From contig MESD01000032.1 in assembly GCA_001770815.1 (NCBI GenBank), positions 1-45,119 on the forward strand: DNA of 45,119 bases, given 5' to 3'. Positions 34,266 through 45,119 of the stretch are shown here, piece after piece; the first letter of the stretch is position 1; every line of letters starts with the position of its first letter. Made by a program: the position numbers and the translations under genes. The notes beneath the pieces are model-generated. The model searched no databases, was not told the DNA's origin, and saw only the letters and a program-made list of their open reading frames with translations. The DNA is from Burkholderiales bacterium RIFCSPHIGHO2_12_FULL_69_20 (lineage in GTDB: Bacteria; Pseudomonadota; Gammaproteobacteria; Burkholderiales; Burkholderiaceae_C).

Positions 34266-34311
34266 GCCGCATCACCCGCCCAAGATTCTTCCTTTTTCCG
34301 AGATCCGCGCC

Positions 34312-35928
34312 ATGCACGACAAGATCCTGATCCTCGATTTCGGCTCCCAGGTCACCCAGCTGATCGCCCGGCGCGTGCGCGAAGCGCAGGTGTACTGCGA
34401 GATCCATCCGAACGACGTGTCGGACGACTTCATTCGCACCTTCGTGCAAGACGGCGGCAAGGGCATCATCCTGTCGGGCAGCCACGCCAGCACCTACGAA
34501 GATCATCAACTGCGTGCGCCGCAGGCGGTGTGGGACAGCGGCCTGCCGGTGCTGGGCATCTGCTACGGCATGCAGACCATGGCGGTGCAGTTGGGTGGCA
34601 CGGTCGAGTGGAGCGACCACCGCGAGTTCGGCTATGCCGAGGTGCGGGCACACGGCCACACCCGGCTGCTCGACGGCATCCAGGACTTCGACACGGTCGA
34701 AGGCTTCGGCATGCTCAAGGTCTGGATGAGCCATGGCGACAAGGTCACCGTGCTGCCGCCGGGTTTCAAGTTGATGGCCAGCACGCCCAGTTGCGCCATC
34801 GCCGGCATGGCCGACGAGGCACGCGGCTACTACGCGGTGCAGTTCCATCCCGAGGTGACCCACACGCTGCAGGGTGCGGCGATGCTGACGCGCTTCGTGC
34901 GCGACATCGCCGGCTGCCGTGGCGACTGGATCATGGGCAACTACATCGACGAGGCGGTGGCCCGCATCCGCGCGCAGGTGGGCGACGAGGAGGTGATCCT
35001 GGGCCTGTCGGGCGGCGTCGACTCCAGCGTGGCCGCCGCGCTGATCCACCGCGCCATCGGCGACCAGCTGACCTGCGTGTTCGTCGACCACGGCCTGTTG
35101 CGGCTGAACGAGGCCACGATGGTGATGGAGATGTTCGCCGGCCGGCTGCATGCCAAGGTGGTGCATGTGCAGGCGGCCGAGCAGTTCATGGGGCACCTGA
35201 AGGGCGTCACCGACCCCGAGCAGAAGCGCAAGATCATCGGCCGCGAGTTCGTCGAGGTGTTCCAGGCCGAGGCCGCCAAGCTCAAGGGCAGCGGCAACAA
35301 GGGCGCTGTCAAAGGGGCGGCCTGGCTGGCCCAAGGCACGATCTACCCCGACGTGGTGGAAAGCGGCGGCACCAAGAGCAAGAAGGCCACCATCAAGAGC
35401 CACCACAACGTGGGCGGCCTGCCCGAGACGCTGGGCCTGAAGCTGCTGGAGCCGCTGCGCGAGCTGTTCAAGGACGAGGTGCGTGCGCTGGGCGTGGCGC
35501 TGGGCCTGCCGCACGACATGGTCTACCGCCACCCGTTCCCCGGCCCGGGGCTGGGCGTTCGCATCCTGGGCGAGGTGCGGGCCGACTTTGCCGCGCTGCT
35601 GCAGCGCGCCGACCACATCTTCATCGAGGAACTGCGGCGCGAGGTCGATCCGCACACCGGCAAGACCTGGTACGACCTCACCAGCCAGGCGTTTGCGGTG
35701 TTCCTGCCGGTCAAGAGCGTGGGCGTGATGGGCGACGGCCGCACCTACGACTACGTGGTGGCGCTGCGCGCGGTGCAGACCAGCGACTTCATGACCGCCG
35801 ACTGGGCCGAGCTGCCCTATGCGCTGCTGAAGAAGGTCAGCAGCCGCATCATCAACGAGGTGCGCGGCATCAACCGCGTGACCTACGACGTCAGCAGCAA
35901 GCCGCCGGCGACCATCGAGTGGGAATGA
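34312..35928 (+). CDS. guaA: GMP synthase (glutamine-hydrolysing)
   Basis: 538 residues from [15 protein letters not shown] at 34312. Amidates XMP to GMP. The class I amidotransferase nucleophile is Cys84 in GICYGMQ, with the His/Glu pair in [10 protein letters not shown]. The ATP-pyrophosphatase loop is [11 protein letters not shown], and the C-terminal dimerisation domain ends [12 protein letters not shown]. The last four codons and the stop form GAGTGGGAATGA (35917-35928), a known type of integration site for genomic islands. The gene is intact, as expected when an island carries a matching gene end. Confidence 0.98.
35917..35928 (+). repeat. Left attachment-like repeat in the guaA 3' end
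   Basis: GAGTGGGAATGA, reading EWE-stop. It pairs with GAGTGGGAGTAG at 40698-40709 (10 of 12 identical). Proposed left border of a decayed island. Confidence 0.65.
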
Positions 35929-36626
35929 GGGGGTTGGTCCTTTAGGGCTTCCGAGATCAATCAGGGACTATCAGATACTGCGCTGGGAAGCGCTTTCAGG
36001 CACTCGCAAGTCGTTGATCGAAAATGGTTTCCCGTTTTGAGCGGCCAGCGAGCTTTCGCGGACTATCGGCAACGATCGCGGGCAAGCGGAGACTTTTTGA
36101 CGGTAAGACTGACGGTCAAAACTTGACGCCCCTTCTTCGGCGGCGCCTTACCGTCACGACCCAACTTTGGGCCTAACGGCAAATTCCAAGACGATTCGCG
36201 AGCATTCATGCGGGTTCGCGGGCGGTAGCAGCACCTCTGGCCACTGACGGTAAATCGCGTGAACGTCCGCACCGCAACCGTTCACTCCGAGCACTCCTGC
36301 CTTGCGATCCCCGAGGCGAAGGCGGCGCCGACCATAGTTGCTTCTCTACCAGCCGTTGACAGATGGAACTACATCATCAAGGACCTGAACATCACGGCGA
36401 GCAGGCACCGGATGTCAGCTGTCTGTGCCTGAGCTGTCTTGCGAACGCCTGATTCGGAGACCGGCAGTCGGCCAGGAGCCGAAGGTCACGGCCGGCGGCT
36501 TTTGGGACGGCCCAACTTGTATCCAGGTGGCAGCCATCGGCGACGTTCTACCTGGAGGATGCCGATCCCGGTTCGATGGCCAAGGATGCTGAGCTTGACG
36601 GCGGGCCCGGTCAAGTTCGCGCATGT
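35929..36626. other. Non-coding left flank of the island
   Basis: Almost 700 bp with no gene that can be supported. It contains GGACTATC at 35965 and 36060, and the repeats TGACGGTAA and variants at 36098, 36110, 36148 (inverted) and 36245. A 57-codon open frame from GTG 36259 to 36432 has some protein-like texture but no recognised relative. This stretch could be where an integrase gene has eroded. Confidence 0.6.
36098..36120. repeat. Pair of TGACGGT repeats with 12-bp period, left
   Basis: TGACGGTAAG at 36098 and TGACGGTCAAA at 36110, start to start 12 bp. The same arrangement occurs at the right end (40615/40627). Single copies lie at 36148-36156 (inverted) and 36245-36254. They resemble arm-type sites of tyrosine integrases. 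Confidence 0.55.
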
Positions 36627-37532
36627 TCAGGTCCAGATTCTGTAGATCCAGAAACTCTCATCCTGTGCGATGCGCCGTCGCAGTTCGTCGGGTGCAAAAC
36701 CCGTCACCCGGCGGGTTTCGCGACATAGGTGGGACTGATCGGAATAGCCCGACTCGGCGGCCACATCTGTCCAGCGAACGTTTGCGCCGCCCAAGGTCAG
36801 CGTGCGAAAGAAGGCCCGCTCGGCCCGCCCCAGGCCACGAAGTTTTCGCATGGGCAGCCCGGCCCAGCCTTTGATGCGGCGCTCGGCTTGGCGCACGCTT
36901 CGGCCTATCCCCGAGCAACCTGCCCGCAAGGCCAAGCCATGCGCCCAGTCCTGGATTCGCAGCAGCCCGGGTGCAGGGGCAGGCGGCCTCGCCGCCTGCC
37001 AGCGCGACGACAGGAACTCTTCGATCAGTGCCACCCGGGCTTCGTCATTCGGCGCCGCCAGCACGGCATGGCTCAGCGAATGCCACTCCGCGCCGAATGA
37101 GGGCGGCAGTGGCTCGAACCGGTTCACCCAGTCGGCAGCATTCAAGCCTGTCAGCGCCTGCACTGCATCGGGTAGCAGCATCAGCATCAGGCCATGCCCT
37201 TCAGGGGAATTGCGAGAGACTCGCGGGCGGGTGACCGGCCCGCTGAAGTAGACCCGTGGCAAGCGGCGCCCCGGGCTGCCAGCCCCTGCCGGCCAGCCAT
37301 CTTCGATGAGTTCCGAATGTCCCGACATGAACCAACTGATGGCGCAAAGTGGGGACGCGGGGAAGTGGTTGTAGTGCCAGGACTCTGGCCAATCGCGACC
37401 GATGCCCAGCGTGCTGCGCGCCACGAATGCGCGCACACAGTGGCTGAGCGATGGATGTGGAAGCCACAGCCGCACAGGTGCGCGATTTAGTGCCGCCAGC
37501 GCGGGCTGCAGAGGCTGAGCGAGCATCGCCAT
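36627..37532 (-). CDS. AraC family transcriptional regulator
   Basis: 301 residues. The C-terminal part (about 190-285) is an AraC-type double helix-turn-helix: RSVRQAERRIKGWAGLPMRKL for the first half and DVAAESGYSDQSHLCRETRRVTGFAPDELRRR for the second. The N-terminal part (LWLPHPSLSHCVRAFVARSTLG, then ISWFMSGHS, VYFSGPVTRPRVS) matches the ligand or oligomerisation region of AraC regulators described as DUF6597-like; no ligand is known. It is divergent from the small membrane protein and may control it and the glycosyltransferase. Located inside the proposed island, with less GC bias than the housekeeping genes. Confidence 0.88.
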   Translation of the reverse strand: MAMLAQPLQPALAALNRAPVRLWLPHPSLSHCVRAFVARSTLGIGRDWPESWHYNHFPASPLCAISWFMSGHSELIEDGWPAGAGSPGRRLPRVYFSGPVTRPRVSRNSPEGHGLMLMLLPDAVQALTGLNAADWVNRFEPLPPSFGAEWHSLSHAVLAAPNDEARVALIEEFLSSRWQAARPPAPAPGLLRIQDWAHGLALRAGCSGIGRSVRQAERRIKGWAGLPMRKLRGLGRAERAFFRTLTLGGANVRWTDVAAESGYSDQSHLCRETRRVTGFAPDELRRRIAQDESFWIYRIWT

Positions 37533-37698
37533 GCGAGCAGTGTAGGCAAATGAACCGCCGGTTGGCGTGTGCGGCCACCAACAACCGCGGTGTCGTGATC
37601 GTTCAATACCTATCCGGCCTTCAGCGCTAGTCTGGTTTCAGTGAACACTTGGCCCGTGACTTCAGCCCTGCCGCCGCTTCCTGCTCTGAAAGAATCCC

Positions 37699-38100
37699 GT
37701 GACCCCGCCTTCACCAGCGTCGATCCCAATGACAAGCAGTTTGCTCGGCGTGGTCTCATCGTGGGCGCTTGTGACTCTCGGCGTGGCCCATCTCGCATTC
37801 GGAATCGCCAAGTACAAGGCTCCGTTGCGCGATGCGGTGGTTGCGGGATTCGTCGGCAGGTTTGCCGAACCCGAACTGCGACGCACGGCGTTCTGGTTCG
37901 TGCTGATCGGCCTTCCGCTTCTTCTGGCCGGGCATGTCGCGGTACGGGCTGCAGGCCGTGCCGACAATGATCCGCTCGGGCTTGTTGGCGGCTACGTGTT
38001 CGCAACCTCGTTGATTGGCGTTGCCGCATTCCCAAGGTCACCGTTTCCGGCGTCACTCATCGTCTCCGTGTTGCTGATCTTGGCCGGCCGCGGTTTCTGA
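37699..38100 (+). CDS. Small membrane protein, DUF6463-like
   Basis: 133 residues from GTG 37699 (AAAGAA upstream) or 123 from ATG 37729. Four hydrophobic segments: about 13-35, 63-82, 95-110 and 115-130, with the motif GVAHLAFGIAKYKAPLRDAVVAG after the first. This resembles DUF6463 membrane proteins often found beside transcriptional regulators; the family name is from memory and the function is unknown. The stop abuts the next frame. Likely the target of the divergent AraC regulator (inference). Confidence 0.7.
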   Translation: MTPPSPASIPMTSSLLGVVSSWALVTLGVAHLAFGIAKYKAPLRDAVVAGFVGRFAEPELRRTAFWFVLIGLPLLLAGHVAVRAAGRADNDPLGLVGGYVFATSLIGVAAFPRSPFPASLIVSVLLILAGRGF

Positions 38101-38151
38101 GTGCATGTGGCCGACGCCATCGTGTTGGCCAAGCCTGGACTGGACGGCGAG

Positions 38152-39438
38152 ATGACGACGAAACCCCTGATTCTGCTGCTGACCTTTGGCACTGGTGGCG
38201 ATCTGCAGCCGTTCTTGGTGCTGGCGGCAGCGCTGGCAGCGCGTGGATACCGCACCCTGCTGGTTGTCCAGCGCTCCCACGAGCAGGTGGTACGGGCCAC
38301 AGGCCTGCCCTACGTCGCCTATGGCACGCACGAACAGTCTGAATCGGTCCTGGACGACCCCGACCTGTGGGACGAGCGCAAAGGCTTAGGCGTGGTCTGG
38401 CGCGGTCTGCTTCCCAGTCTGAATGAGATTCGCGGGCTGCTGGTCTCGCACGCCCAAGCTGGCGACTGTGCCGTGTTGAGCCACCCCTTCCTGGTTCCCG
38501 TGGCCACGATGGCGAAGGAGCAGCAAGCCCATCTGAGGATCGTGTGCGCCTACCTGGCGCCATCCACCATGCGCACGGTGCACGACCCCCTGACCGTGGG
38601 GTCGCTGAATGTGCCGAGGTGGGTGCCGACGTCGCTGCGTCGTGCGCTGTGGTGGACCATCGACAAGTTCTGGATCGACCCCGATCTGCTGCCCGGACTG
38701 AACGCTGTCCGTACCGCCCATGGATTGAAGCCGGTAGCCAGCTTTCTGGCGCACATGGAAACGGCAAGTGACGCGTCGGTCGCTCTCTTTCCAGCCTGGT
38801 TTGCCACCCGCCAGCCCGACTGGCCTGTCACCTTTTTCGAGGGTCACTTCCCTCTGCGATCCCCGTCGCCGTTGCAACGCCTGCCTGCGGAGCTGGAAGA
38901 CTTTCTGGCGGCGGGCGACGCACCCATCGCGTTCACCGCGGGAACAGGGCATCGGCACGCCACTGGCTACTTCGTGAACGCATTGACCGCGCTGCGTGCG
39001 CTGGGTCGGCGCGGCCTGTTTCTCACGACCTTTGGCAACCAGCTGCCGAGCCCGCTGCCGCCGGACGTGCGATGGCAGCCACACGCACCCTTCGATCTGC
39101 TGCTGCCGCGGGTGGCCCTGTTGGTGCACCACGGGGGCATTGGCACGACGGCCGAAGCGCTGCGCGCGGGCGTGCCGCAATTGATCCTGCCTTTCGCGTT
39201 CGACCAGTTCGACAACGGCAGGCGAGTGCAGTACCTGAATGCAGGCAGCGTTGTGCCCGCGTCACGGGCCAATGCGCGTCGGCTGCGGCAAGAAATGGAA
39301 TCTCTGCTAGTCCGCTCGATGAAGCTTCCCAGCTGCGGAATCCCGGGCGACTTGCCCGCGGATGCAGCCCTGGAGCAGTTGGTGGATAGTGTTGAGCATG
39401 CATTCAACTTCAGCACAGAGAACCCCGGACGAAGCTGA
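38152..39438 (+). CDS. Glycosyltransferase, GT1/UGT-like
   Basis: 428 residues from ATG 38152; a GTG at 38101, directly after the previous stop, would add 17. The N-terminus LILLLTFGTGGDLQPFLVLAAAL is the acceptor-side start of GT-B enzymes of the UDP-glucosyl/rhamnosyl type. The donor-side motif is WQPHAPFDLLLPRVALLVHHGGIGTTAEAL, with His326-His327, followed by GVPQLILPFAFDQFDN, close to the plant/bacterial PSPG box. Sugar donor and acceptor are unknown; glycolipids and natural products are both possible. It follows the DUF6463-like gene closely and is probably co-transcribed. Confidence 0.88.
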   Translation: MTTKPLILLLTFGTGGDLQPFLVLAAALAARGYRTLLVVQRSHEQVVRATGLPYVAYGTHEQSESVLDDPDLWDERKGLGVVWRGLLPSLNEIRGLLVSHAQAGDCAVLSHPFLVPVATMAKEQQAHLRIVCAYLAPSTMRTVHDPLTVGSLNVPRWVPTSLRRALWWTIDKFWIDPDLLPGLNAVRTAHGLKPVASFLAHMETASDASVALFPAWFATRQPDWPVTFFEGHFPLRSPSPLQRLPAELEDFLAAGDAPIAFTAGTGHRHATGYFVNALTALRALGRRGLFLTTFGNQLPSPLPPDVRWQPHAPFDLLLPRVALLVHHGGIGTTAEALRAGVPQLILPFAFDQFDNGRRVQYLNAGSVVPASRANARRLRQEMESLLVRSMKLPSCGIPGDLPADAALEQLVDSVEHAFNFSTENPGRS

Positions 39439-39660
39439 AGGCGTGGCACTTCGATCGCTTCGCGCGCGGGTCTGCCACTTGGCCGGCTCCGTCGGAGAGT
39501 CTGGGCTTCGAACCCCCTGAACGGCCGCTTGGTGGCGATGGAATCCAATTCGGCTGCGCCCGTTTTGGGTCGTTCTCGAACTTCCGGCCGGAGTCGGCGG
39601 CTGACGGCTGCCCAGCCCACTGCCGACATCCAGTCTTGGATGCCTCAAACGGCGAGTCGA

Positions 39661-39686
39661 CTGTTATCAACAGATGATATAGTCTG
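39661..39686 (+). promoter_or_regulatory. Promoter and operator-like repeats before the toxin-antitoxin pair
   Basis: CTGTTATCAACAG (39661-39673) is a perfect inverted repeat around ATC, and CAGATGATATAGTCTG (39671-39686) carries CAGA/TCTG arms around a -10-like TATAGT (39678-39683). The start codon at 39693 is only 9 bp after the -10 box and has no ribosome site, so a leaderless message is possible. Autoregulation by the antitoxin is inferred from toxin-antitoxin practice. Confidence 0.5.
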
Positions 39687-39692
39687 TCTTCG

Positions 39693-40058
39693 ATGAACGG
39701 TCCCGATGTCGGCCTCGAAACGCTTCTTGAGCTGGACGGCAGCGTCCTGGAGCAGGAGGGCGGCTTCTGGATCAAGATCGAGGCACGTCAGGTTCCGGCG
39801 TCGGAGCATGCGCTTCACGGCATCAGGTACAGCCTCACGCTTCACGACAGGTTCGGAACCCGGGTCCTCGGCTACGACAACGCACACGCGGTGAAGCCTC
39901 CGAAGAAGTTCAAGTTCGCGGGGCAGCGGCTGCCCTACGACCATCGCCATCGAACCGCAAGCGACAAAGGCGTCCCCTACGCGTTCGAGTCGGCGCAGCG
40001 GCTGCTGGAGGACTTCTTCGCAGAGGTGGACCGTGTGATCAAGGAAGCACAGCAATGA
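39693..40058 (+). CDS. TumE-type toxin (DUF6516 family)
   Basis: 121 residues. The core YSLTLHDRFGTRVLGYDNAH, then AVKPPKKFKFAGQRLPYDHRHR and the C-terminal AQRLLEDFFAEVDRVIKE are the familiar DUF6516/TumE pattern, annotated as the toxin of a two-gene system. The biochemical activity is not known to me. The conserved basic and His residues (YDHRHR) suggest nucleic-acid action (guess). The stop overlaps the start of the next gene by four bases (ATGA), so production is coupled. Near the right end of the proposed island, where such pairs help hold islands in place. Confidence 0.75.
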   Translation: MNGPDVGLETLLELDGSVLEQEGGFWIKIEARQVPASEHALHGIRYSLTLHDRFGTRVLGYDNAHAVKPPKKFKFAGQRLPYDHRHRTASDKGVPYAFESAQRLLEDFFAEVDRVIKEAQQ

Positions 40059-40408
40059 AGACCATCGTCATCGGCGTCATGTCCCAGGAACAGATCCGGG
40101 CCCGCACGATTGCCATCGCCAAGGGCGAGTACAAGCCCAAGCCCGGAGAGCCCAGGATCTGGTTCACCTCCATGAAGTCGGTGGCCGAGGTGCTGAGCGA
40201 TCAAAACCGCGCGCTGCTCAAGGTCATCAGGGAGACCAACCCGGATTCCATGACCATGCTGGCCAAGACCACAGGGCGGCAGCCTGGCAATCTGTCGCGC
40301 ACCTTGAAGACGATGTCGCGCTACGGGCTGGTGGATCTCCAGCGCGACAAGACACACGTGAGGCCGGTCGTGAAGGCGACTGGATTCCGCATCATGGCTG
40401 CGGCCTGA
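40055..40408 (+). CDS. Winged-helix antitoxin/regulator partner of TumE (HVO_A0114-like)
   Basis: 117 residues. After a short N-terminal part (MSQEQIRARTIAIAKGEYKP, FTSMKSVAEVL) comes a winged helix of MarR/HVO_A0114 type: LLKVIRETNPDSMTMLAKTTGRQ, then NLSRTLKTMSRYGLVDLQRD and RPVVKATGFRI. It is the usual second gene after a DUF6516 toxin and should bind the toxin or its promoter. The order toxin first, antitoxin second is less common than the reverse. Identity as an antitoxin rests on context. Confidence 0.72.
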   Translation: MKTIVIGVMSQEQIRARTIAIAKGEYKPKPGEPRIWFTSMKSVAEVLSDQNRALLKVIRETNPDSMTMLAKTTGRQPGNLSRTLKTMSRYGLVDLQRDKTHVRPVVKATGFRIMAAA

Positions 40409-40614
40409 TGTTGTGCGTCACTGCCTTGAGCGTCGAACGACGAGACTCCGCCGTCCTGGGCAGGGCGGTGACTGGGCGGTGGCTGGCATAGTCCCTGAAG
40501 CGTGGCAAGCGATGAGGCCGGCGATGGTCCTCGATAGTCCGCGAAGGCCGTTTGCAACCTGCGTAGACTGGTAGTCCTTGGTCCTGATCAAACGAAATTC
40601 GAGCTCTTTTGGTC

Positions 40615-40636
40615 TGACGGTAAAGCTGGCGGTAAA
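40615..40636. repeat. Pair of TGRCGGTAAA repeats with 12-bp period, right
   Basis: TGACGGTAAA at 40615 and TGGCGGTAAA at 40627, the same 12-bp step as the left pair at 36098/36110. Lies 62-83 bp inside the right border repeat. Confidence 0.55.
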
Positions 40637-40697
40637 GATGCAGCGTCTAGTTATTTAAGCCAATGACGACAACGGGTTGCCAGCGCAGGAAATGATT

Positions 40698-40709
40698 GAG
40701 TGGGAGTAG
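40698..40709 (+). repeat. Right attachment-like repeat (displaced guaA end)
   Basis: GAGTGGGAGTAG. Together with the preceding ATT it reads IEWE-stop, the same peptide as the real guaA end but with different third bases, which is what a gene end kept by protein-coding selection and then displaced would look like. Confidence 0.6.
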
Positions 40710-40772
40710 AGATCTTTCGAGGACTATCGCGGCCTAGCGAGATCTATCGCGAATTCGCAGCTGCCGGGCAGC

Positions 40773-41210
40773 TCATGGCGTACTGCGCGACGCGGCGGTG
40801 CCGGCCTGCTGCCGTTCGACCAGCCGCAGCATCGTGGCCAGCGTGATCGATTTGAAGGTGGCCCTCGCGTTCTCGTCGATCTCGGACAGCACCAAACCCA
40901 GCGCGGCCTCCACCGGCCCCGACTGCGGGGCCGCCGCCGCGGCAGCGCTGTCGCCGAAATCCTCGAACATCTGGATGATGTCCATCAGCGTCAGGCGTTT
41001 GGCGTTGCCGGTGAAGCGGTAGCCGCCGCCGGCGCCACGCACCGAAGCGAGGAGGCCCGAGCGCGCCAGTTCGGCCAGCACCTTGGCCAGGTGGTGCGCC
41101 GAGATGTCGTACTTCTCGGCGATCTCGGCCGCGGCGATGTGGCGCTCTGGCGTGCGTGCGAATTCGAGCACGCTGTACAGCGCCAGCGAGGTGTTCTTCT
41201 GCAGTCTCAT
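40773..41210 (-). CDS. Rrf2 family regulator without cysteines
   Basis: 145 residues. The winged helix is clear: MRLQKNTSLALYSVLEFA, IAAAEIAEKYDISAHHLAKVL, and LARSGLLASVRGAGGGYRF. IscR and NsrR carry three cysteines for an iron-sulfur cluster after this region; here there is no cysteine in the whole protein. The cluster region is replaced by an Ala-rich loop (about 87-97). It must sense something else or act without a cofactor. It lies 15 bp downstream of the GNAT gene on the same strand and faces away from the Liv operon, so it could regulate both sides of 41748-41883. Confidence 0.9.
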   Translation of the reverse strand: MRLQKNTSLALYSVLEFARTPERHIAAAEIAEKYDISAHHLAKVLAELARSGLLASVRGAGGGYRFTGNAKRLTLMDIIQMFEDFGDSAAAAAAPQSGPVEAALGLVLSEIDENARATFKSITLATMLRLVERQQAGTAASRSTP

Positions 41211-41225
41211 GGCAGCTGCGCGGGC

Positions 41226-41747
41226 TTAAGGCTCAAGATCCATCTCCAGGGCGATCAACGGTCCTGCCATCATGCCCTGAGCGCGAAAGAACGACAGGAT
41301 CAGCGTGTTCTCCAGCGCCACGATGGTGCGCAGCTTGCGCACCCCGATGCGCTGGAAGCGCGCACTGATGGCCTGCAACAACTGCGTGCCCACGCCGGCC
41401 AGCCGCGCCTGCGGGTCGACGTCGATGGCGAAGACCCAGCCGCATGGCTGCGAGCCGAACTCCCAGTCGCGCACCTCGCCGATGACAAAACCGACGACAT
41501 GGCCATGGACCAGCGCCACCAGGAACTGCTGCGCATCGTGCGTGCCGCTGCCGTAGCGGCGGTACACCGACAACCAGTACTTGCGCTTCTCCAGGCCGGT
41601 CACCGTGGCGTCGAGATCGATGACCCGGTCCAGGTCGCTGCGGCGCACGGCGCGCACTTCGATCGCAGCCTCGGCATCAGTGCTTTCCCTGGGGGTGGCG
41701 CGGGACCGCTGGCGCGGCGCGGCCGGGGTGGTGGTGGGCTTCTTCAT
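41226..41747 (-). CDS. GNAT family N-acetyltransferase
   Basis: 173 residues. The first 30 are Pro/Thr/Arg-rich and probably disordered. The GNAT fold follows: IEVRAVRRSDLDRVIDLD, FLVALVHGHVVGFVIGEV, then FAIDVDPQARLAGVGTQLL, whose RLAGVG stretch (115-120) is the acetyl-CoA pyrophosphate loop. The C-terminal ENTLILSFFRAQGMMAG is typical. Substrate unknown. Same strand as and 15 bp upstream of the Rrf2 gene, so they are probably co-transcribed from the region shared with the divergent Liv operon. Confidence 0.88.
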   Translation of the reverse strand: MKKPTTTPAAPRQRSRATPRESTDAEAAIEVRAVRRSDLDRVIDLDATVTGLEKRKYWLSVYRRYGSGTHDAQQFLVALVHGHVVGFVIGEVRDWEFGSQPCGWVFAIDVDPQARLAGVGTQLLQAISARFQRIGVRKLRTIVALENTLILSFFRAQGMMAGPLIALEMDLEP

Positions 41748-41780
41748 TTCTTGAACTGGATCAATCTTAAATCAGCATTG

Positions 41781-41788
41781 TGGTACCA
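41781..41788. promoter_or_regulatory. Palindrome in the divergent GNAT/Liv promoter region
   Basis: TGGTACCA within an AT-richer stretch of the 136-bp gap between the GNAT and Liv starts. Could be part of a regulator site; the evidence is only symmetry and place. Confidence 0.3.
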
Positions 41789-41883
41789 GAATGTTTCTAT
41801 CGCTGGTGGTCGGTGTGTCTAGCTCCAGGGCTCGGTGCAGCGGTTGATTGTGCAATGGTCCCCGATGGGGCAAGGAGACAGTC

Positions 41884-43047
41884 ATGAGGTTTCTCACATT
41901 CGTCCGCACGCGGTGCGCTCAAGGTTTGCTGGCGGGTGCAGCGGCGCTGCTGGCCGCCACGGCCGCCTGGGCCCAGGCGCCGATCCGCGTCGGCGCTTTC
42001 TTGTCCGTCACCGGGCCGGCCGCCTTCCTGGGCGACCCGGAGCTGAAGACACTGGAGCTCTACGTCGAGCGACTCAATGCCGAAGGTGGCGTGCTCGGCC
42101 GCAAGCTGCAGCTGGTGGCCTACGACGATGCCGGCGACGCGGAGAAGGCGCGCACCTTCGCCAAGCGCTTGCTCGAGCAGGACAAGGTCGACCTCATCGT
42201 CGGTGGCAGCACCACCGGCACCACGATGGCGGTGGTGCCGATGGTCGAGCAGGCCGGCGTGCCCTTCGTGTCGCTGGCCGGCGCGGTGGTCATCGTCGAG
42301 CCGGCCAAGAAGTGGGTCTTCAAGACACCGCACACCGACCGCATGGCCTGCGAGAAGATCTTCGTCGACCTGCAGTCTCGCAAGCTCAGCAAGGTGGCGC
42401 TGATCTCGGGCAGCGGCGGCTTCGACAAGTCGATGCGTGGTGAATGCCTGAAGGTGGGGTCCAAGCACGGCATCGAGTTCGTCGCCGACGAGACCTACGG
42501 CGCCACCGACACCGACATGACCGCGCAGCTCACCAAGATCAAGGGCAGTGGCGCGCAGGCGGTGCTCAACGCCGGCTTTGGCCAGGGCCCGGCAATCGTC
42601 ACCCGCAACTATCGGCAGGTCGGGCTGACCCTGCCGCTGTACCAGTCGCACGGTGTCGCATCGAAGGAATACATCAAGCTCTCCGGTTCCGCTGCCGATG
42701 GCGTGCGCCTGCCCGCCGCGGCGTTGCTGGTGGCCGACCAGCTGGCCGCCGGCGACGCGCAGAAGCCCGTGGTTGCCGGCTACACCAAGGCCTTCGCGGA
42801 CAAGTACAAGGCCGACGTTTCCAGCTTCGGCGGCCATGCCTACGACGGGCTGATGCTGGCGGTGAACGCCATCAAGGCGGCGGGCTCGACCGACAAGGCC
42901 AAGGTGCGCGACGCGCTCGAGGCCACCAAGGGTTATGTCGGCACCGCCGGCGTGGTCAACATGTCGGCCAGCGATCACATGGGGCTGGACCTCAGTGCGT
43001 TTCGCATGCTCGAGGTGCGCAACGGCAACTGGGCGCTGGTGAACTGA
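41884..43047 (+). CDS. Liv-type ABC transporter substrate-binding protein (second operon)
   Basis: 387 residues from MRFLTFVRTRCAQGL at 41884, with AAGGAGA five bases upstream; an earlier in-frame ATG lacks this. The signal peptide ends about AWA-QAPIR. It is a type-I binding protein: VGAFLSVTGPAAFLGDPELK, LYVERLNAEGGVLGRKLQLV and DDAGDAEKARTFAKRLL. It is clearly different from the pair at 20628-23215, so it serves another ligand. First gene of an operon with livH-, livM- and livG-like genes. Confidence 0.93.
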   Translation: MRFLTFVRTRCAQGLLAGAAALLAATAAWAQAPIRVGAFLSVTGPAAFLGDPELKTLELYVERLNAEGGVLGRKLQLVAYDDAGDAEKARTFAKRLLEQDKVDLIVGGSTTGTTMAVVPMVEQAGVPFVSLAGAVVIVEPAKKWVFKTPHTDRMACEKIFVDLQSRKLSKVALISGSGGFDKSMRGECLKVGSKHGIEFVADETYGATDTDMTAQLTKIKGSGAQAVLNAGFGQGPAIVTRNYRQVGLTLPLYQSHGVASKEYIKLSGSAADGVRLPAAALLVADQLAAGDAQKPVVAGYTKAFADKYKADVSSFGGHAYDGLMLAVNAIKAAGSTDKAKVRDALEATKGYVGTAGVVNMSASDHMGLDLSAFRMLEVRNGNWALVN

Positions 43048-43074
43048 GTCGATGCGGCCTGCTCGCGAAGCATC

Positions 43075-43950
43075 ATGGGCAGCGCATGGCTCCAATTCAT
43101 TGCCAGCGGGCTGACCGCGGGGGCGATCTACGCGCTCGTCGCGCTCGGCTTTTCGATCATCTACAACGCCAGCGGCGCGATCAACTTCGCGCAGGGTGAG
43201 TTCGTGATGATCGGCGGCATGAGCGCGGTCACGCTGCTGGCGTTGGGCTTGCCGCTGTGGCTGGCGCTGCCGCTGGCCGTGCTGGCGTCGGTGCTGGTGG
43301 CGCTGATCATCGAGAAGTTGGCCATCGAGCCCGCGCGCCACGCCGGCACCGTCACGCTGATCATCATCACCATCGGCGTGGCGCTGTTCCTGCGCGGGCT
43401 GGCGCAACTGGTGTGGGGCAAGGGCGTGCACCGGCTGCCATCGTTCTCGAGCGAGCAGCCGATCGAATGGCTGGGCGCCACGCTGCTGCCGCAAAGCCTG
43501 TGGGTGATGGGCGGCGCCGCGCTGGCGGTCGTGGCTTTGAGCGCTTTCTACGGGCACACCTTGCTCGGCAAGGCGATGCGTGCCACGTCCTACAACCGCG
43601 TGGCTGCGCAACTGGTGGGCATCAACACGCGCGGTGTGCTCTTCGCCAGCTTCGGTCTGGCGGCCGGATTGGGCGCGCTGGGCGGCGTGCTCATCGCGCC
43701 GATCGCCTTCACCTCTTACGACGCCGGCATCATGCTCGGCCTGAAGGGGTTCGCCGCGGCCATGCTGGGCGGGCTGGGCAGTTTTGCCGGTGCGGTGCTC
43801 GGTGGCCTGGTGCTTGGCCTGCTCGAAGGCCTGGGCGCGGGTCTCGTCTCGTCGGCCTACAAGGACGCGATCGCCTTCGTCGTGATCCTGCTCGTGTTGT
43901 TCCTGATGCCGCAGGGCCTGCTCGGTGGACGTGGCAGCGAACGTGTCTGA
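43075..43950 (+). CDS. livH: Liv-type ABC transporter permease LivH (second operon)
   Basis: 291 residues. IASGLTAGAIYALVALGFSIIYN, GAINFAQGEFVMIGG and the cytoplasmic loop GKAMRATSYNRVAAQLVGI mark it as LivH. It lies 27 bp after the binding-protein stop and overlaps the next gene. Confidence 0.94.
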   Translation: MGSAWLQFIASGLTAGAIYALVALGFSIIYNASGAINFAQGEFVMIGGMSAVTLLALGLPLWLALPLAVLASVLVALIIEKLAIEPARHAGTVTLIIITIGVALFLRGLAQLVWGKGVHRLPSFSSEQPIEWLGATLLPQSLWVMGGAALAVVALSAFYGHTLLGKAMRATSYNRVAAQLVGINTRGVLFASFGLAAGLGALGGVLIAPIAFTSYDAGIMLGLKGFAAAMLGGLGSFAGAVLGGLVLGLLEGLGAGLVSSAYKDAIAFVVILLVLFLMPQGLLGGRGSERV

Positions 43951-44914
43951 GGCGCCGCGCGCGGCCCTGCCCCGCTGGTGGGCGCGTCCGCGCAGCGGCG
44001 GCCTGGCTGCGCTGGCGGCGGTGATCGTGCTGCTGCCTCTGGCGCTGGCCAACAACTATTTCTACGAGGTGGCGATCCTGGTGGCGCTGAACGCCACCGT
44101 CTGCGTCGGGCTGAACCTGCTGATCGGCTATGCCGGCCAGATCAGCCTGGGCCATGCCGGGTTCTTCGCGCTGGGCGGCTACGGCAGTGCGATCCTGGCC
44201 ACGCAGTACGGGCTGTCGACGTGGCTCTCGCTGCCGCTGGCCTGTGCCGGCGTGGCGCTGCTGGCGCTGCTGATCGGGCGGCCCACGCTGCGCCTGAAGG
44301 GACACACGCTGGCCATGGCGACGCTCGGTCTGGGCGTGATCATCGCCATCGTCATCACCACCGAGGACCGCCTCACCGGCGGGCCCGACGGCATGTCGGT
44401 GCCCGCGCTGGTGCTCTTCGGTTGGACAGTGGCCGGCGAACGCACCTGGTACTGGATCACGGGCGCGGTGTTGCTGGCCACGGTCTGGCTGGCATTCAAC
44501 CTGATCGAGTCGCCGCGCGGGCGTGCGCTGCGCGCGCTGCATGGCTCGGAGGTGGCGGCGCAGACGCTGGGCATCGACAGCGGCCGCGCCAAGCTGCAGG
44601 TGTTCGTGCTGTCGGCGCTGGTGGCGGCCCTGGCGGGCGCGTTGATGGCGCATTACACCGGCTTCATCACCCCGGCCAAGGCCTCGTTCCTGCATTCGGT
44701 GGAACTGGTGATCATGGTCGTCTTCGGCGGCATGGCCTCGGTCTTCGGCGCAGTGGTCGGCGCGGCCGTGCTGACCATGCTGCCGCAACTGCTGACGGTG
44801 CTGAAGGACTACGAAATGATGGTCTTCGGCGCGGTGCTGATCGCCACCATGGTGTTCTTCCCGCTGGGCGTGGTGCCCACGCTGGCGCAGTGGTGGGCGA
44901 GGAGGCGGCCATGA
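43925..44914 (+). CDS. livM: Liv-type ABC transporter permease LivM (second operon)
   Basis: 329 residues if the GTG at 43925 is used; GTG at 43943 would shorten it by six and reduce the overlap with livH from 26 to 8 bp. Neither has a strong ribosome site. NATVCVGLNLLIGYAGQISLGHAGFFALGGYG is the LivM signature, and ALRALHGSEVAAQTLGID the cytoplasmic loop. The stop overlaps the next start as ATGA. Confidence 0.93.
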   Translation: MDVAANVSEAPRAALPRWWARPRSGGLAALAAVIVLLPLALANNYFYEVAILVALNATVCVGLNLLIGYAGQISLGHAGFFALGGYGSAILATQYGLSTWLSLPLACAGVALLALLIGRPTLRLKGHTLAMATLGLGVIIAIVITTEDRLTGGPDGMSVPALVLFGWTVAGERTWYWITGAVLLATVWLAFNLIESPRGRALRALHGSEVAAQTLGIDSGRAKLQVFVLSALVAALAGALMAHYTGFITPAKASFLHSVELVIMVVFGGMASVFGAVVGAAVLTMLPQLLTVLKDYEMMVFGAVLIATMVFFPLGVVPTLAQWWARRRP

Positions 44915-45119
44915 CGCTGCTCTCGGTGCAGGGGTTGGGCAAGGCCTTCGGTGGCGTGCATGCCAACCAGGACGTGAACCTGGCGGTGCGCGCCGGCACG
45001 GTGCATTCCATCATCGGCCCCAATGGTGCCGGCAAGACCAGCCTGATCAACATGCTCAGCGGTGTCTACCGGCCCGATGCCGGCAGCATCCGCCTGGCGG
45101 GCGCCGAACTCGCCGGGCT
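44911..45119 (+). CDS. livG: Liv-type ABC transporter ATP-binding protein LivG, partial (cut by right edge)
   Basis: The first 69 residues are visible from ATG 44911, which overlaps the livM stop. MTLLSVQGLGKAFGGVHANQ is the standard LivG opening and Walker A reads GPNGAGKTS. The signature and Walker B motifs lie outside the window. A livF gene would be expected next. Confidence 0.93.
   Translation, partial: MTLLSVQGLGKAFGGVHANQDVNLAVRAGTVHSIIGPNGAGKTSLINMLSGVYRPDAGSIRLAGAELAG

Follow-up and report, generated by a model that had tools for sequence, protein, structure and literature searches.

The 3′ end of guaA in Burkholderiales bacterium RIFCSPHIGHO2_12_FULL_69_20 raises the question of whether the DNA that follows this gene is an inserted element and, if so, what such an element has kept and what it has lost. 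The stretch analysed here (the window) comprises positions 1–45,119 of a 77,351-nt contig, C32, in the 219-contig draft assembly of this genome (G000). An initial annotation had noted that the last codons of guaA recur 4.8 kb downstream, both copies ending in I-E-W-E-stop, and we find the repeat exactly as described. Judging from sequence, we put the probability at roughly 85% that the interval 35929–40709 (4,781 bp; island 1) is an integrase-less unit flanked by attachment (att) sites at the guaA 3′ end, similar to a cis-mobilizable element (CIME), and the first of three tandem units.

Core repeat and arm sites

The repeat pair at 35917–35928 and 40698–40709 accounts for the only occurrences of GAGTGGGARTRR in the window (shuffle mean, 0.02; two copies in 0 of 100 shuffles), and no third copy lies elsewhere on C32. 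The insertion point is the guaA 3′ end, and the GAGTGGGA core is present again at the far end. The interval is less GC-rich, as had been claimed (62.9% versus 69.0% in window positions 1–35928). Its description as sparsely coding holds for the ends, with no gene recognised in 35929–36626, but not overall, as five genes cover 70% of it. Island 1 has the appearance of DNA inserted site-specifically at the guaA 3′ end. On its own, the 12-mer is weak evidence on the genome scale (6 matches in G000 compared with 5 for the reversed control), and we therefore looked for independent features around the repeat. It is the surroundings of the repeat (arm sites, 83-nt spacing and a composite signature) that take it beyond chance.

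Six TGACGGTMA sites occur in the window, five of them within the insert, compared with 0.40 expected for the whole window. The TGACGGTA arms adjoin guaA at the left end of island 1, and TGACGGTMA recurs at 40615, near the right core. An unguided repeat search returned TGACGGTAAGACTGACGGTCAA/TGACGGTAAAGCTGGCGGTAAA and AGCGAGCTTTCGCGGACTATCG/AGAGATCTTTCGAGGACTATCG as two of 17 direct-repeat families. With cores and arm sites at both ends, island 1 appears to have kept both attL and attR. The layout of the left region is similar in three loci with an integrase (L227, L239 and L246) and in L205, in which no integrase was found.

The composite TGACGGTA-N(70-78)-GARTGGGARTRR matched at 34 places (two of them in G000 itself), in 32 of 399 family genomes and 27 of 141 genera, and its reversed control matched nowhere in the 399 genomes. 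Arm and core are 82–86 nt apart in all 30 loci that we fetched. We infer that the composite marks the right end of guaA-type elements and that the other loci share the link to guaA. Searching the family with the left-end DNA (372 nt) gave only short matches outside G000, with 7 of the 399 genomes matched, G000 included.

Integrase genes in G000 and its relatives

We ran the PF00589 profile on G000 and eight relatives. The 22 matches in G000 include none on C32 or on C139, a contig that continues it (see below); this profile search covered one recombinase family. Using 10 integrases from guaA sites as tblastn queries against the insert gave nothing convincing (the best hit, with E = 0.019 and 25% identity, runs antisense to the AraC gene), and a hidden integrase fragment in 35929–36626, for which a search had been proposed, was rejected on this result. 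That stretch of 698 nt (59.7% GC) contains no recognised gene, and its open reading frame (ORF) at 36259–36432 matches no Pfam family. The initial annotation was right, then, that no integrase is left and that the cargo has been kept. As we found no guaA-type tyrosine integrase of its own beside guaA, island 1 is not filed as a self-mobile island of the GIsul2 type. Within the integrase gap, about 120 nt (~36350–36474) are nearly identical in locus L042 of the relative G014, more so than their surroundings, and encode no recognised product.

An intact enzyme stands at the equivalent place in G016, whose guaA protein is 97% identical: a 418-aa tyrosine integrase (Arm-DNA-bind_3, Phage_int_M and Phage_integrase domains) that starts just past the left attachment region. 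A guaA-site integrase in G335, from another genus, is 75% identical to it, and in G019 the match is limited to the first 83 residues of a G016-type integrase. Among named guaA loci (the best 80 of at least 592), ten have an integrase-like ORF downstream of guaA, nine of more than 350 aa from stop to stop and one a 151-aa fragment; the profile used for these loci and for the flanks was built from four sequences, and other integrase families could escape it. The G016 integrase has relatives in the plasmid collection (7 records at 60–80% identity) and is 58% identical to the integrase of pAB3, within ~15 kb of which are alpA, repA, repC, trbJKL and sul2, a gene set that we read as GIsul2. Twelve of the 22 PF00589 matches in G000 had loci that were compared with the G016 enzyme, and the best are 31–34% identical.

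The same integrase-less left end is present in G014 at 81–82% identity over 546–577 nt; the third codon positions of guaA in G000 and G014 are 74% identical. Comparison of the two values hints that the integrase-less form has spread by transfer. In L211 (Cupriavidus necator UYPR2.512, from 11609), guaA is followed by the left-end motif and then by an integrase gene that looks broken by eye, possibly an intermediate stage of integrase decay. Among the eight relatives, PF00589 matches lie near guaA on the guaA-bearing contig only in G015. This genome has two guaA tails, one on C122 (2–112) with PF00589 matches at 979 and 3750, and one on C147 that leads to a stretch with a PIN gene. The 2.86-Mb contig of G012 has other PF00589 matches, none within 250 kb of guaA.

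Sequence beyond the right core

The initial annotation had island 1 end at 40709 and expected strains without the insert to join guaA directly to what follows. This boundary is probably wrong, and the DNA beyond it probably not chromosome: the sequence past 40709 resembles the left end of another element and leads into a second island. When 98 guaA 3′ flanks were ranked by their match to the 60 nt past core 2, six that we class with this integrase type (L031, L032, L116, L227, L239 and L246) were in the top 12; five loci with integrase-like ORFs (L187, L197, L204, L206 and L263) are not among the 22 flanks listed in the ranking. The motif G[AT]CTATCG follows the core within 40 nt at 7 of the 30 attR loci, including that of G000, and is absent from all 30 in a control interval that lies 300 nt further on. 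An attR followed at once by a second element is thus no rarity in the family, and we take this as the best reading of the G000 sequence.

The end of C32 overlaps the start of C139 (reverse complement) exactly over 74 nt, and among the loci examined this 74-mer was found at those two ends only. A single open frame of 666 codons spans the join, and its neighbourhood, a ligase and a gene that we read from its sequence as hydroxybenzoyl-CoA-reductase-like (hcr), is also found together in G001. The joined sequence of 102,205 nt has four cores, at 35917, 40698, 87422 and 98249, and between them three tandem units of 4,781, 46,724 and 10,827 bp. Core 3 has its arm at 83 nt, as does core 2, and 60 of the 83 positions are equal.

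A guaA site joined directly to an Rrf2 gene had been expected in relatives lacking the insert. That expectation was rejected: neither Rrf2 nor the GNAT gene beside it was found in any of the 18 relative flanks that we fetched from 17 genomes, although four of these flanks (L032, L034, L038 and L042) extend for under 2 kb beyond guaA. The usual right neighbour is tadA, together with ldcA and yejABEF-like genes (named by us from sequence). In seven relatives (G001, G006, G007, G009, G011, G012 and G020) tadA shares a contig with guaA and is located downstream of it, and in 28 of the 80 named loci it falls within the fetched flank. In G000 (C38) and 11 further relatives with a match, tadA is on a different contig from guaA, many of these assemblies being drafts. 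In G003, the two genes lie on separate large contigs, C6 and C3 (327 kb and 588 kb), while they are neighbours in other species, which suggests a rearrangement.

Occupied and empty sites in related genomes

Two relatives bear on whether elements stack at this site. In G006, cores follow guaA at 1649, 10760 and 13147 of the oriented stretch. The guaA tail of G011, at a contig end, runs directly into the sequence past the third G006 core (94.7% identity over 1467 aligned columns); guaA of G011 is split over contigs, with a further 70%-identical fragment on C40, and the evidence for an empty site is a guaA tail of 216 nt. For the genus, this pair of empty and occupied sites speaks in favour of stacking by site-specific insertion at guaA and, together with the intact integrase of G016, supports the proposed insertion at the guaA 3′ end.

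Other core-bounded units in which no integrase was found measure 9.1 and 2.4 kb in G006 and 7.8 kb in G012. Between the cores of four units in relatives (the two of G006, one of G010 and one of G012) PF00589 gave no match, in a search confined to that family. The G010 unit (L035) is a mini-unit of 1.64 kb from guaA to the second core, with a PIN gene. A Ramlibacter metagenome-assembled genome has a 3.66-kb guaA unit (L254, 11606–15285) with AbiEi/AbiEii, an 83-nt right arm and no integrase by the four-sequence profile. L283 holds a 1.4-kb mini-unit (cores at 184 and 1587) with an ORF that looks antitoxin-like by eye; integrases were not searched for there by profile.

At the 30 attR loci, 61 ORFs were called and 38 of them picked by eye, without a control set; the 38 include two AbiEii, two DUF6088, two HipA, one MazE and one TumE (that of G000), as well as two TrbI and two type I restriction domains. 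An enrichment of toxin–antitoxin genes at attR is suggestive only.

Genes of island 1

As in a CIME, neither a tyrosine integrase nor a transfer gene is found among the five genes of island 1, which encode an AraC-family regulator, a DUF6463 protein, a glycosyltransferase, a TumE-domain protein and a helix-turn-helix (HTH) protein (Table 1). Their GC content at third codon positions (GC3) is 0.69–0.87, compared with 0.919 (standard deviation, 0.017) for 30 called genes on the left side, a reference value that the gene caller inflates. The glycosyltransferase falls far under the NCBIfam cut-offs of antibiotic-modifying families, so no substrate is assigned. A TumE-domain toxin gene adjoins that of an HTH antitoxin, the two ORFs sharing 4 nt, as in TumE–TumA systems; the pair may work as a toxin–antitoxin system. 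A Cupriavidus taiwanensis plasmid that has DUF6516 and HTH genes matches the DNA encoding the pair (67.5% identity over 685 nt). Defence-system names from PADLOC were not adopted, the HTH partner having given weak matches only. A phage origin was rejected, with no match among 50,697 phage records, and a plasmid origin was rejected, as the four plasmid records that matched covered at most 14%.

Table 1 Features at the guaA 3′ end and in island 1 (window coordinates)
Feature	Position	Strand	Remarks
guaA (GMP synthase); 3′ end is the attachment site	34309..35928	+	Pfam GATase, GMP_synt_C; one match only in G000
Core 1 (attL core), GAGTGGGAATGA; last guaA codons and stop	35917..35928	+	
Left attachment region	35929..36260	+	GGACTATC motifs at 35965, 36060; TGACGGTMA arm sites at 36098, 36110, 36148 (minus), 36245
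Stretch without recognised gene, where an integrase would stand	36261..36626	.	~36350–36474 nearly identical in G014
AraC-family regulator	36627..37532	-	HTH_18, HTH_AraC above cut-off; GC3 0.73
DUF6463 protein, 133 aa	37699..38100	+	PF20064, E = 2.5e-16
UDP-glycosyltransferase-like protein, EryCIII-like C domain	38101..39438	+	Under every NCBIfam cut-off
TumE-family toxin (predicted)	39693..40058	+	PF20126, 32.3 bits (cut-off 23.4)
Winged-helix protein, probable TumA antitoxin	40055..40408	+	PF25212, E = 2e-19; 4-nt overlap with tumE
Right arm sites TGACGGTAAAGCTGGCGGTAAA, starting 83 nt ahead of core 2	40615..40636	+	
Core 2, GAGTGGGAGTAG; attR of island 1 and, in our reading, also attL of island 2	40698..40709	+	
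Probable left-end remnant of island 2 (AGATCTTTCGAGGACTATCG...)	40710..40769	+	Without arms or integrase
Start of island 2: Rrf2 (-), GNAT (-), branched-chain ABC transporter genes (+)	40773..45119		Extends past the window to 87433 of the joined sequence and includes anaerobic aromatic genes

Islands 2 and 3

The bcr-type benzoyl-CoA pathway is encoded in island 2: the four subunit genes bcrA, bcrB, bcrC and bcrD together with had, oah and dch each exceed a curated equivalog cut-off (TIGR02259, 02260, 02261, 02263, 03189, 03200 and 03201). Alongside them are genes for a phenylacetate-CoA-ligase-like protein, a 2-oxoacid:ferredoxin oxidoreductase, a molybdopterin oxidoreductase and an ABC transporter; the molybdopterin protein and the ligase fall under the equivalog cut-offs. 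Contig C41 of G001 has counterparts to 38 of the 48 island 2 genes called, at 45–95% protein identity and in a different order; three more match at 34–36% and seven have no match. No core was found in the 99.5 kb of that contig that we read. Part of the gene set is also held by G006 and G011. A homologue of the LysR gene that closes island 2 on the right lies next to Rrf2 in G006 and G011. A circular form would account for this placement, but the orientation is opposite and we make no use of it. Island 3 (10.8 kb, on C139, locus L112) has a gene for a PIN-domain toxin near its right end that is 89–90% identical to a gene downstream of guaA in G006, G010 and G015.

Gene calls on C32 and C139 came from a codon-usage script that favours high GC3. 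Neither the AraC nor the DUF6463 gene was picked up by it, and further genes may have escaped it in islands 2 and 3. For the absence of genes that characterizes a CIME, part of the genes in these two islands was scanned by profile.

How the array may have formed

The features read directly from sequence (cores, arms and their spacing, no integrase match, the intact integrases of relatives, the contig overlap and the gene content) would fit the following course. A tyrosine integrase of the GIsul2 type would have recombined the attP sites of elements with the GAGTGGGA core at the guaA end. Every insertion would have restored guaA and left a fresh core, so that elements could stack one after the other. 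The integrase genes would later have been deleted, island 1 keeping its arm sites and island 2 about 60 nt of its left end. The cargo may have been retained as useful or addictive: island 1 has TumE–TumA, island 2 the anaerobic metabolism of benzoyl-CoA and island 3 the PIN-domain toxin.

Several observations, beyond the commonness of the 12-mer in the genome, weigh against an att-flanked unit heading a triple array. The interior of island 1 matches none of the 18 relative flanks, leaving it with no sister copy, and no relative shows an empty site for island 1 or the array (the contigs of the nearest relatives, G016 and G019, end 4.7 kb and 1.9 kb past guaA). For only 1 of the 30 attR loci (L283) does guaA lie within the available 1.5 kb. 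The left-end match past core 2 is short: its best score is 31, above the 95% limit of shuffles (24) and under their maximum (32). In the ranking of flanks L221, with a similar integrase, comes only 16th and the left end of the window itself 14th, and this ranking is not independent, as the flank class was drawn up partly on the motif itself. The GC content of island 2 (69.3%) is that of the host chromosome, so its insertion is argued only by its two att-like ends. Finally, the flank past core 4 does not correspond to any known neighbour of guaA (its methyltransferase is present in 3 of 20 relatives); with this unfamiliar flank, and with tadA on the core-less C38, the right end of the array is unproven.

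Alternative explanations

Islands 1 and 2 could instead be one element that ends at core 3, core 2 being an internal look-alike of an attachment site. There is no integrase from core 2 to Rrf2 and the left-end remnant spans only ~60 nt, as this would predict; yet a right arm stands 83 nt ahead of core 2, as it does ahead of core 3, a left-end motif follows core 2 as at six other attR loci, and the GC contents of the two islands differ (62.9% and 69.3%). We consider a single element improbable. A still smaller chance attaches to an assembly artefact at the junction of guaA with Rrf2 or at the join of C32 with C139. The assembly is a draft, but in our judgement 12-nt cores are too short to mislead an assembler, and the join is exact, occurs once per contig end among the loci examined, restores one ORF and fits the gene order of G001. 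Least credible of all is that the interval is ordinary ancestral intergenic DNA with a chance repeat. The genome-wide count of the 12-mer would allow it; the arm sites, their spacing and a family-wide signature whose reversed control is empty speak against it, as do tadA as the gene downstream of guaA in relatives and named loci and an island 1 interior that none of the fetched flanks shares.

Another possibility is that island 1 is no decayed relic but a unit that moves at present through the integrases of other guaA elements. To call it immobilised, as the initial annotation did, is to claim what is unproven: island 1 cannot move itself, yet a core and arm sites remain at either end, on which an integrase encoded elsewhere could act, as is published for the CR2-sul2 unit at guaA (PMC9376610). 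In the same direction point the left end shared with G014, closer than the third positions of guaA would lead one to expect, and the other integrase-less, core-bounded units (L254, the two of G006, those of G010 and G012, and L283, the last not searched by profile). Against present movement, no guaA-type integrase was seen among the G000 matches compared, and no second copy of island 1 was seen. We regard such movement as a tentative option, well short of even odds, and continue to favour the integrase-less, CIME-like unit at the head of a tandem array.

Relation to known elements

GIsul2 inserts at GAGTGGGA in the guaA 3′ end and forms attL, attLR and attR sites, and its integrase also moves the CR2-sul2 unit (PMC9376610). 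The G000 array shares with these elements the guaA 3′-end target, the GAGTGGGA core and att sites in a row, and the GIsul2 integrase is related to the G016 enzyme. Unlike GIsul2 and CR2-sul2, no unit of the G000 array has an integrase match, and the cargo differs from that of GIsul2 in consisting of TumE–TumA, a glycosyltransferase and anaerobic aromatic metabolism. Among the array genes scanned by profile, none was sul2 or ISCR-like.

CIMEs are elements that have kept attL and attR and lost their integration and transfer genes; a review that describes them, and their stacking by accretion, also lists elements that target guaA (PMC5704250). The islands resemble CIMEs in each of these respects, being stacked at the end of one gene with att sites kept and integration and transfer genes apparently lost. 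They differ from accretion as the review presents it, in which an incoming element lies beside a CIME (PMC5704250), in that no active partner was found in the G000 array. TumE–TumA is a toxin–antitoxin family demonstrated experimentally (PMC10584680), and the putative G000 pair has the same arrangement of a DUF6516/TumE toxin beside a putative HTH antitoxin (PMC10584680). The island 2 genes bcrCBAD, had, oah and dch, with those of the 2-oxoacid:ferredoxin oxidoreductase, correspond to the bcr-type anaerobic benzoyl-CoA pathway. In contrast to G001, which has the same bcr-type genes on a contig with no core in the part read, the G000 set lies between two guaA-type cores. Among the 15 of 85 papers listed by a literature search, judged by their titles and the beginnings of their abstracts, we recognised no account of a benzoyl-CoA reductase island at guaA.

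This kind of element is thus already known, and the integrase-less triple array with a catabolic middle island is a new instance of it. The att signature of an arm, 82–86 nt and a core is searchable and finds right ends with or without an integrase, including those that a survey starting from integrase genes would overlook. It is conceivable, although we hold it to be the less likely case, that across the family the guaA end serves as a shared docking site at which integrase-less units, from toxin–antitoxin mini-units of 1.4–4.8 kb to a catabolic island of 46.7 kb, are stacked, kept and spread by the GIsul2-type integrases of passing elements. That a set of genes for the anaerobic benzoyl-CoA reductase pathway lies between two guaA-type cores suggests a way in which a catabolic pathway of patchy distribution could be acquired in a single block.

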